Shown here: positions 6,448-15,581 of the stretch, one piece after another | How the letters are laid out: every line of letters starts with the position of its first letter | Position numbering within the stretch: position 1 is the first letter of the stretch | IMG/VR virus record: IMGVR_UViG_3300042564_002717 | Location: 1-33,119 of that record | DNA length: 33,119 nucleotides | Strand: one strand, 5' to 3' | Source of the DNA: a virus | The notes under the pieces: model-generated | Database searches by the model: none | Told to the model about the DNA's origin: nothing | What the model saw: the letters and a program-made list of their open reading frames with translations, nothing else | Position numbers and translations under genes: made by a program

Positions 6448-7995
6448 ATGCTTTATAAGAAAACTGAAAACTACACGCTTTTTCAAGGTTCAAACCTTGA
6501 CGTCTTGCCAACTCTGCCGGATAACTCCGTAGACGCTATCGTTACCGATCCGCCTTACGAAATCGGGTTTATGGGTAAAGGTTGGGACTCTTCGGGAATT
6601 GCGTTCAACGTTGAACTCTGGAAAGAGTGTCTTCGAGTCCTAAAACCTGGGGGACACGTTCTCGCCTTCGGAGCGACTCGCACTTTTCACCGTTTAGCGG
6701 TGGCAGTAGAGGACGCCGGTTTTGAAATCCGCGACTCTATCGCGTGGCTTTATGGTTCGGGATTCCCTAAGTCAATGGACGTTTCTAAAGCTATCGACAA
6801 GGGATCCGGCGAAAATAGGGAAAGACAGTTAAGGTTTACTTCGTGGATGCGGTCGACCGGTATCACTTCGGGCCAAATTGACGCAGCAACCGGAACGAGC
6901 ATGGGCGGACACTATCTAACGGACGCGAGCCAGCCGGCAATCGCGACTGCGGACTTGTTCGACTTGCTCCGTCCTCTACTGCCGGAAGTCCCCGAAGAAA
7001 TCGAAAGGCTTGTCGCGGAGAGAACCGGTATCGAGTGGACGGCCTATAAGAACCGTCCGGTTATCGGAGCCAAAATGTCCGGAATTTCAAACAAGGACGA
7101 AGAGAAAAGACACACTATCGGAGCCGGTAAAGCCGTAGCGGTTGAAATTACCGCGGCAGCAACTCCGGAGGCCGAAGAGTGGAAAGGTTGGGGAACCGCT
7201 CTAAAGCCGGCGTTCGAGCCGGTAGTCGTTGGACGCAAGCCTCTAATCGGAACCGTCGCTAGAAATGTTCTTACTTATGGAACCGGAGCCTTGAACATTG
7301 ACGCGACAAGAATCAAAGTCGAAGGAGAAGTCTTCGAGGAGTTTGAGTCGAACGAAGTTCCTCTAATTGAAATCGAATCCGATTCGCAGCCGCTGGAGTT
7401 TACTAAGGAATCCGAAACCCTGGGTCGCTGGCCGTCTAACGTGATCTTCGACGAATTCACCGCCGAAATTCTGGACGAACAATCGGGAGTGACGGTAAGC
7501 AAGGCAGCGAGCCGCGGACTTATGAACTCCGGAAGTTTAGGCGGAATCGCAGACACCGGACCAACCCCGAAACCTGGCACTAACGGAGTTCGAGGGCATG
7601 ACGACTCCGGCGGAGCTAGCCGTTTCTTTTATGTTGCGAAGCCTTCAAGCGCGGACCGTAACGAAGGACTCGACCACTTACCGCTAAGGAAATCAGATAC
7701 TCGCAGCGAGACGGCGGCCGGCCTCTGGTCCAAAATGGAAGCGCCGAAAAGAAACTTTCATCCGACAGTAAAGCCGACCGACCTTTTGCGCTATCTGGTG
7801 AAACTTGTTACCCCTCCGAACGGCGTTGTCCTTGACGTCTTCAACGGTTCAGGATCAACCGGTAAGGCTGCTCTTCTTGAGGGTTTCAAATACATCGGCA
7901 TTGAACTAACGGAGGAATACCTTCCATTAACGGAAGCGCGCCTCGACTTTATAGAATCGAAGCGCGCTAACGAGGAAGCAAATAGTCTTTTTTAG
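6448..7995 (+). CDS. DNA methyltransferase, beta class (N6-adenine or N4-cytosine)
   Basis: This 515-residue enzyme transfers methyl groups from S-adenosylmethionine to DNA. The catalytic motif IV, TDPPYEIGF, is at 33-41. HPTVKP and motif I (DVFNGSGSTGKAA) lie in the C-terminal 80 residues. The order IV-target domain-I defines the beta class. The middle (about 110-390) is a long target-recognition and insert region, larger than usual. No restriction enzyme is adjacent, so it probably protects phage DNA or regulates. A strong GAAGGAG site precedes the ATG. The stop codon overlaps the stop of the convergent whiB gene. Confidence 0.92.
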   Translation: MLYKKTENYTLFQGSNLDVLPTLPDNSVDAIVTDPPYEIGFMGKGWDSSGIAFNVELWKECLRVLKPGGHVLAFGATRTFHRLAVAVEDAGFEIRDSIAWLYGSGFPKSMDVSKAIDKGSGENRERQLRFTSWMRSTGITSGQIDAATGTSMGGHYLTDASQPAIATADLFDLLRPLLPEVPEEIERLVAERTGIEWTAYKNRPVIGAKMSGISNKDEEKRHTIGAGKAVAVEITAAATPEAEEWKGWGTALKPAFEPVVVGRKPLIGTVARNVLTYGTGALNIDATRIKVEGEVFEEFESNEVPLIEIESDSQPLEFTKESETLGRWPSNVIFDEFTAEILDEQSGVTVSKAASRGLMNSGSLGGIADTGPTPKPGTNGVRGHDDSGGASRFFYVAKPSSADRNEGLDHLPLRKSDTRSETAAGLWSKMEAPKRNFHPTVKPTDLLRYLVKLVTPPNGVVLDVFNGSGSTGKAALLEGFKYIGIELTEEYLPLTEARLDFIESKRANEEANSLF

Positions 7996-14173: not shown

Positions 14174-14466
14174 TGGCAGACGTTCAAGTAAAACCGCGCT
14201 GCAAGTGTAAAGGTTGCTCTTTCTGGCTTGTCCTTGAGGCAGAGCGAGCGGACCTTTCCTATAAACGGCCTTCAAGTATCACGCCGCCGCCGAAGGAAGA
14301 AAAACCTAGAACCATAACTAAAGTCGTTTATCGGGATACGCCTCTAAGTGAGGAACGCGACCTAATGATGTTCAACGCTGGCAGACACGCGGCCGGAGCA
14401 AGAGACCAGCCGGCTATAAACGCTGCGGCTATGCTAAACGTCGAAATGGAGAAGGCACGTGGCTAA
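14173..14466 (+). CDS. Hypothetical protein with C-x-C-x2-C motif
   Basis: The product has 97 residues with a GTG start inside the upstream stop. The N-terminal CKCKGC motif (about 10-15) may bind metal. A Pro/Lys-rich linker separates it from a C-terminal helix with GRHAAGARDQPAINAAA. No family is recognised. It overlaps the start of the cytosine methyltransferase gene by 8 bases. Confidence 0.65.
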   Translation: MADVQVKPRCKCKGCSFWLVLEAERADLSYKRPSSITPPPKEEKPRTITKVVYRDTPLSEERDLMMFNAGRHAAGARDQPAINAAAMLNVEMEKARG

Positions 14467-15067
14467 GTTGAAGGTAGGAAGCCTTTTCTCTGGCTATGGC
14501 GGCCTCGACCTGGCTATTGGCGAAGTTTTGGAAGCCGAAGTCGCGTGGCATTGCGAGTGGGACGCCGCTCCCTCGAAGACTCTCGATCAGAATTTCCCTG
14601 ACGTTCCAAATTATCGAGACGTTTCAACCGTTGACTTTTCTCAAGTTGAGAAGGTCGACATTTTGACAGGCGGCTTTCCCTGCCAAGACCTAAGCATTGC
14701 CGGCAAGCGCGCCGGAATCAAAGAAGGAACTCGAAGCGGCTTATGGTCCGAATTCGCTCGAGCGATCGAAACTATTCGGCCAAGTTTGGTGGTAATTGAA
14801 AATGTTCGAGGAATCCTCTCCGCGTCTGCCTTTTGCGACGTGGAACAATGTTCGTGGTGTATGGGAGAAGGAACAAGCGGCCAGCCTCTTTTGCGCGCAC
14901 TTGGAGCCGTTCTCGGAGACTTGGCCGACCTCGGGTATGACGCAAGGTGGACGGGCGTTCGCGCTTCCGAAGCTGGCGCGCCGCACCATAGATTCCGCGT
15001 CTTCATCATCGCCTATCCTGCCAACTCCGGCGGTCGCTCACTTGAGGAATCACGACGAGAATCTTGA
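14459..15067 (+). CDS. DNA cytosine-5 methyltransferase, catalytic N-terminal part
   Basis: This 202-residue product (GTG start) carries the catalytic half of a C5 methyltransferase: motif I SLFSGYGGLDLA (8-19), motif IV GGFPCQDLS with catalytic C75, motif VI VIENVRG (112-118), and a motif VIII region RASEAGAPHHRFRVF. It then stops at 15067 without the target-recognition domain and motifs IX-X. Those are encoded in a second frame that overlaps this one for about 270 bases. Either two chains assemble, a frameshift joins them, or the gene is broken. There is no restriction enzyme gene nearby. Confidence 0.85.
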   Translation: MAKLKVGSLFSGYGGLDLAIGEVLEAEVAWHCEWDAAPSKTLDQNFPDVPNYRDVSTVDFSQVEKVDILTGGFPCQDLSIAGKRAGIKEGTRSGLWSEFARAIETIRPSLVVIENVRGILSASAFCDVEQCSWCMGEGTSGQPLLRALGAVLGDLADLGYDARWTGVRASEAGAPHHRFRVFIIAYPANSGGRSLEESRRES

Positions 15068-15581
15068 CGACTACATGAGCCGGCGGAACGATTATCACGA
15101 AGGACGCGCTAAGGGAATGCCTGGCGCTTCGTTAGGCGTCGCGGTTCGGCTAGTAGAAATCGGCATAGATAATTGGCAAGTAAAAGACTTCCTTCCAACG
15201 GTAACGACTCAAGACGGAAAGAATAACGCCGGTCCTAGTCAATTCGAGAGAAATACGTTACCGCTAAACGCTCAAGTTATGGACTTCGCAACCTGGGGAC
15301 GCTTCGAGCCGGCTATTGAACGCTGGGCCGCAGTAATCGGACGGCCGGCACCTTCACCGACTAACGCAGACGGCAAGGACGGAAGCCACCGTCTTTCGCC
15401 TAAGTTTTGCGAGTGGATCATGGGCTTACCCGAAGGCTGGATAACCGGACCGGACGTAACTAGAAACGAGTCCCTAAAAATGGCCGGAAACGGAGTCGTT
15501 CCGCAGCAAGCGGCCGCGGCGATTCGTTTTCTTTTAGATTCAATTCAAGATGAGAAAATAGAAGAAATGAAAGGCAACTAA
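14802..15581 (+). CDS. DNA cytosine-5 methyltransferase, target-recognition and C-terminal part (overlapping frame)
   Basis: From the ATG at 14802 (a TTG at 14796 is possible) the product has 259 residues. The end shows motifs IX-X: LSPKFCEWIMGLPEGWITG, then LKMAGNGVVPQQAAAAIRFL. The middle has ILPTPAVAHLRN and a WGRFEPAIERW segment typical of the C-terminal half of actinophage C5 methyltransferases. Strikingly, the part that overlaps the catalytic gene also reads like a target domain (ETWPTSGMTQGGRAFALP, then RRTIDSASSSS). So either it is a true overlapping gene making a separate subunit, or only residues after about 75 belong to the enzyme and the upstream resemblance is chance. Confidence 0.7.
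   Translation: MFEESSPRLPFATWNNVRGVWEKEQAASLFCAHLEPFSETWPTSGMTQGGRAFALPKLARRTIDSASSSSPILPTPAVAHLRNHDENLDDYMSRRNDYHEGRAKGMPGASLGVAVRLVEIGIDNWQVKDFLPTVTTQDGKNNAGPSQFERNTLPLNAQVMDFATWGRFEPAIERWAAVIGRPAPSPTNADGKDGSHRLSPKFCEWIMGLPEGWITGPDVTRNESLKMAGNGVVPQQAAAAIRFLLDSIQDEKIEEMKGN

Follow-up and report, generated by a model that had tools for sequence, protein, structure and literature searches.

Natural cytosine-5 DNA methyltransferases made of two polypeptides are known. In M.AquI the large chain carries motifs I-VIII and the small chain carries motifs IX-X plus part of the variable region, while in M.EcoHK31I two chains are both required, with motif IX in the smaller (PMC3404938), whose gene probably lies in another frame of the large one. 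Multispecific C5-methyltransferases of Bacillus phages (SPR, phi3T type) appear to carry serial target-recognition domains between motifs VIII and IX of a single chain. The closest described arrangement is that of genes 7 and 6 of the cluster O mycobacteriophage Corndog and its relatives, where the N part of a cytosine methyltransferase is followed by an overlapping frame with the C-terminal helices (Cresawn et al. 2015, PMC4351075). These authors noted coding potential in the second frame within the overlap and an RBS inside the upstream ORF, found no splicing by RT-PCR and no gp6 or gp7 products by mass spectrometry, and left two products, frameshift, hop or intron open; no paper resolving this question was found in the openly licensed literature searched. 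Dylan genes 7/6 read the same way.

The locus studied here lies in a 33,119-nt IMG/VR virus record (IMGVR_UViG_3300042564_002717, analysed over its whole length and referred to as the window), which also encodes terminase, portal, tail, RecE/Erf and RusA-like genes, as well as a second, unrelated DNA methyltransferase at 6448-7992 (PHROG 67, 3e-78). It comprises an N chain of 202 aa (frame f0, GTG 14459 to stop 15067) and a C chain of 259 aa in the +1 frame (f1, ATG 14802 to stop 15581), which share 266 nt. The features are:

14459..15067, + strand, N chain (f0), C5-methyltransferase motifs I-VIII
14681..14683, + strand, catalytic Cys75 codon, motif IV GGFPCQD
14788..14792, + strand, GGTGG, Shine-Dalgarno-like, 9 nt before the C-chain ATG
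14802..14804, + strand, C-chain start ATG, lying out of frame inside the Glu114-Asn115-Val116 codons (GAA AAT GTT) of N motif VI
14802..15581, + strand, C chain (f1), overlap domain, two LPTP modules and motifs IX-X
14802..15067, + strand, dual-coding overlap, 266 nt
14829..14969, + strand, overlap-encoded N-terminal domain of the C chain (WN..VWE..ETWPTSGM..G)
14978..15004, + strand, N-chain motif VIII APHHRFRVF, the f0 reading of the overlap
15018..15191, + strand, LPTP module 1 (LPTPAVAHLRNHDENL...), probable target-recognition module
15192..15293, + strand, LPTP module 2 (LPTVTTQDGKNNAGPSQFERNTLPLNAQV...)
15294..15539, + strand, motif IX-X region WGRFEPAIERW...RLSPKFCEWIMGLPEGW...LKMAGNGVVPQQ

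The N chain matches PF00145 (4e-36, up to profile position 162/324), TIGR00675 (2e-35) and PHROG 363 (6e-66), and possesses PCQ (C75), ENV and GAPHHRFRVF; column C75 is invariant in the alignment of relatives, and columns A174, H176, R178, R180 and F182 are conserved. Its AlphaFold2 model (pTM 0.76) has M.HhaI as best PDB match (E 2e-13). The C chain matches PHROG 1008 (2e-57), and although its motifs IX-X are recognized only weakly by Pfam (0.026, positions 272-317/324), their position and conservation agree with this assignment. PHROG 363 and PHROG 1008 are annotated phage families, whose relation as overlapping partners is not stated there. NCBIfam has no model for the C chain, a PDB sequence search with the C-chain profile gave nothing, and a fold search gave only weak DNMT3-like matches, and the C chain as a whole has no confident fold match. 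AlphaFold2, with 36 sequences, predicts residues 10-53 of the C chain, which are encoded entirely within the overlap, to be a small beta domain (pLDDT about 73-89) in which W14, W21, W41, G45 and G50 are invariant, and residues 170-230 are modelled with a pLDDT of about 90, while the modules are of low confidence. The initial annotation had read WPTSGM as target-domain-like; this motif lies instead in the conserved N-terminal domain of the C chain, whereas the probable target-recognition part consists of the LPTP modules from 15018 on.

By tblastn, the C chain was found in 571 of 50,697 phage records, mostly of Mycobacterium, Gordonia and Arthrobacter, and annotators often list two overlapping "DNA methylase" genes (Leona 41/42, Phanphagia 65/66, Blue7 92/91, Vash 32/33). 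Among 250 loci collected from phages, IMG/VR and actinobacterial genomes (numbered below with the prefix L), 165 have the IX-X region in the +1 frame, in one ORF with the overlap domain (split, like the window). In 68 loci N and IX-X share one ORF; in 63 of these the overlap domain is nevertheless found in f1, in four it is not found, and one is irregular, a Fodinicola locus (L128) where N motifs I-VI, part of the overlap domain and IX-X are in one frame and motif VIII in another, perhaps a broken gene. In the remaining loci IX-X lies in another frame or was not found. Since the loci were gathered through N-chain or IX-X similarity and many are related, these numbers are counts and not frequencies in nature. 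In A+T-rich viral loci (L008, L018, L032, L049, L075, L078, L081 and L083) the module array changes frame before IX-X (f0 or f2), possibly reflecting broken genes, assembly errors or further splits.

The dual-coding nature of the overlap was scrutinized in several ways. Over 10,948 overlap codons of 207 loci, f1 contains 0 stops, while the third frame (f2) contains 381. Synonymous codon identity in the N frame, relative to codon-usage expectation, is 1.12 upstream but 1.92-1.98 in codons 125-168 for 83 non-redundant split viral loci (p 2e-15), and 20 fused loci show 1.09 against about 1.5 (p 3e-5). When the N chain of the window was synonymously recoded, the C frame stayed open in 21 of 500 trials, and the score to an overlap-domain profile that excludes the window was 36 +/- 9 bits (maximum 69) compared with 103 bits for the real sequence (z = 7.2). 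The null is not zero: conserved motif VIII does cast a shadow in f1, and resemblance alone would have been weak evidence, but most of the resemblance is not shadow. The predicted beta domain encoded by the overlap agrees with these results.

Two start arrangements recur. In type A, to which the window belongs, f1 is open through motif VI and an ATG sits in GA(A/G)-AAT-GTN, often behind GGTGG; the same TTGGTGGT context recurs in many type A loci, and the ATG is present at this position in 69 of 115. However, 39 of 115 type A loci have no ATG, GTG or TTG between ENV and the domain, many of them belonging to a divergent group without the WN domain, and only 57 of 115 have a Shine-Dalgarno sequence by a simple pattern. 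In type B, f1 is closed by stops after motif VI, and the first start codon lies exactly six codons after the ENV position in 77 of 79 loci (74 GTG, 3 ATG), with a Shine-Dalgarno-like sequence in 77 of 79. In the nested high-G+C loci of type A that have the WN domain, each has either the Asn codon AAT that makes the ATG or the +6 GTG, while type B nested loci use AAC in 14 of 15.

The selected frame further downstream was determined by counting substitutions by f0 codon position in ungapped pairs. In split loci N is f0-coded (23527/12594/88264), while modules (11163/3296/1644) and IX-X (47827/11472/6316) are f1-coded. In nested high-G+C loci with one continuous f0 ORF, N is f0-coded (523/355/893), the module zone is f1-coded (1014/309/218), and IX-X is f0-coded again (492/421/1203); the same was seen in a set made up mostly of mycobacteriophages. 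The counts use all pairs, which are not independent, and are read for direction and size only. In the nested loci f0 has no stop in 4,280 module-zone codons, while f2 has 99, and f0 in split high-G+C loci has 47 in 1,511. As this class was defined by an open f0, the zero is partly built in; it is informative because the complementary class (IX-X in f0 but with a stop between) has only two members, both A+T-rich. In some nested loci (L100, L107, L113, L121, L133 and L089) the f1 stop overlaps an f0 NTG (GTGA, ATGA) right before LLPTP, like a stop-start coupling site that would begin a third chain. In the module zones of A+T-rich split loci the f0 stop density is 0.097 per codon, twice that of f2 (0.044), as if early ending of the N chain were favoured. 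Continuous-frame homologues exist, but their second frame is still constrained, and the case that the initial annotation had named as refuting dual coding, continuous-frame homologues without such constraint, fails.

The LPTP modules, of which there are 1-5 per locus by a motif rule, look like an exchangeable set. Module 2 of the window is 90% identical over 29 aa to a module of locus L181, whose N chain is 67% identical. In 18 module pairs that are at least 85% identical the N chains are under 75% identical, and 17 of these pairs sit at different array positions, as expected for exchanged specificity parts. Near-identical modules in loci with divergent N chains are seen in L003, L105, L178, L217, L181 and others. 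Single-linkage clustering merged unlike modules, and family counts derived from it are not used.

Together, these data support the first alternative proposed in the initial annotation, a dual-coding region from which one enzyme is made as two out-of-frame chains, and we consider this reading, although unproven at the protein level, to have a probability of roughly 0.87. Under this reading, some ribosomes make the N chain (SAM binding and catalysis) from GTG 14459, while others start at the internal ATG 14802, behind GGTGG, and make the C chain, comprising the overlap-encoded domain, the modules and motifs IX-X. That two products form and assemble into one active enzyme, that the overlap-encoded domain docks the C chain on the N chain, and that the modules recognize DNA are inferences, the latter two from position. 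The enzyme would methylate the phage's own DNA, most likely to escape host restriction, although no cognate restriction enzyme or target sequence was identified. The split point, between motif VIII and the recognition part, is where artificial halves of M.SssI reassemble best (PMC3404938), and the partition of motifs is the same as in M.AquI. Compared with M.EcoHK31I, motif X of the window (GNGVVPQQ) is on the C chain together with IX, and the C gene extends beyond the N gene, while relatives of the window include nested +1 genes of the M.EcoHK31I type. Compared with the multispecific Bacillus phage enzymes, the modules of the window are LPTP-type and located on a separate chain.

A programmed +1 frameshift or ribosome hop, by which the ribosome would leave the N frame after motif VIII and continue in the C frame, would give a canonical I-X order in one protein and was listed as an option in PMC4351075, but is considered unlikely. 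A late shift would not explain f1 constraint starting near the C start, f1 starts and f1-closing stops far upstream of the shift; the N stop falls at variable places (2-37 codons after motif VIII), and no shared slippery motif is visible at the module/IX-X junction of nested loci, although the N/C boundary was not scanned systematically for shift sites. It is very unlikely that the synonymous constraint reflects RNA structure or regulatory sites rather than a second protein: this constraint alone cannot tell the two apart, but stops are avoided in f1 and not in f2, substitutions downstream follow the f1 codon pattern, and f1 runs without a break into a long conserved protein. A single-frame methylase broken by a simple indel, with the second frame as a shadow of motif VIII, is contradicted, despite the real shadow resemblance of about 36 bits, by the same +1 geometry in 165 of 250 loci, the absence of f1 stops, synonymous constraint, positional selection and start-site conservation, and by the real sequence exceeding every recoded one.

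Similar arrangements may extend beyond actinobacteriophages. The Paenibacillus phage Arcticfreeze (CDS 57 inside CDS 56), a P. polymyxa plasmid, Salmonella phage SEN5 and Lacticaseibacillus phage R9.1 carry f1 ORFs of 203-283 codons inside the methylase gene (L264:1673-2377, L266:1017-2507, L267:945-1934 and L268:1005-1856), with (L/W)xTP modules and a motif IX-like end, against 43-57 codons for f2; among these four, the nested ORF is annotated only in the Paenibacillus phage. The nested relative Arcticfreeze has the M.EcoHK31I layout, with motif X on the large chain and IX alone on the small chain. Selection in these loci was compared only pairwise and is not decisive. It is about as likely as not that cytosine methylases of phages and plasmids commonly carry their DNA-specificity chain in the +1 frame of the catalytic gene. 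In the nested form the catalytic frame (I-VIII ... IX-X or X) would stay open throughout, while an internal second-frame gene made of a docking domain plus exchangeable target modules would supply specificity, as a separable specificity subunit hidden inside the catalytic gene.

The present analysis provides a computational and largely sufficient answer, with exact start codons, to a question stated in print in 2015 about a methylase arrangement now seen in hundreds of actinobacteriophages; compared with the earlier description of Corndog, both frames are shown to be constrained, start sites are defined, and the family is surveyed. It represents a well-supported long same-strand dual-coding region in which catalytic and recognition parts of one enzyme share DNA. 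It also shows that many genes annotated as one fused "DNA methyltransferase" carry selected coding sequence in a second frame, so their annotations need re-reading.
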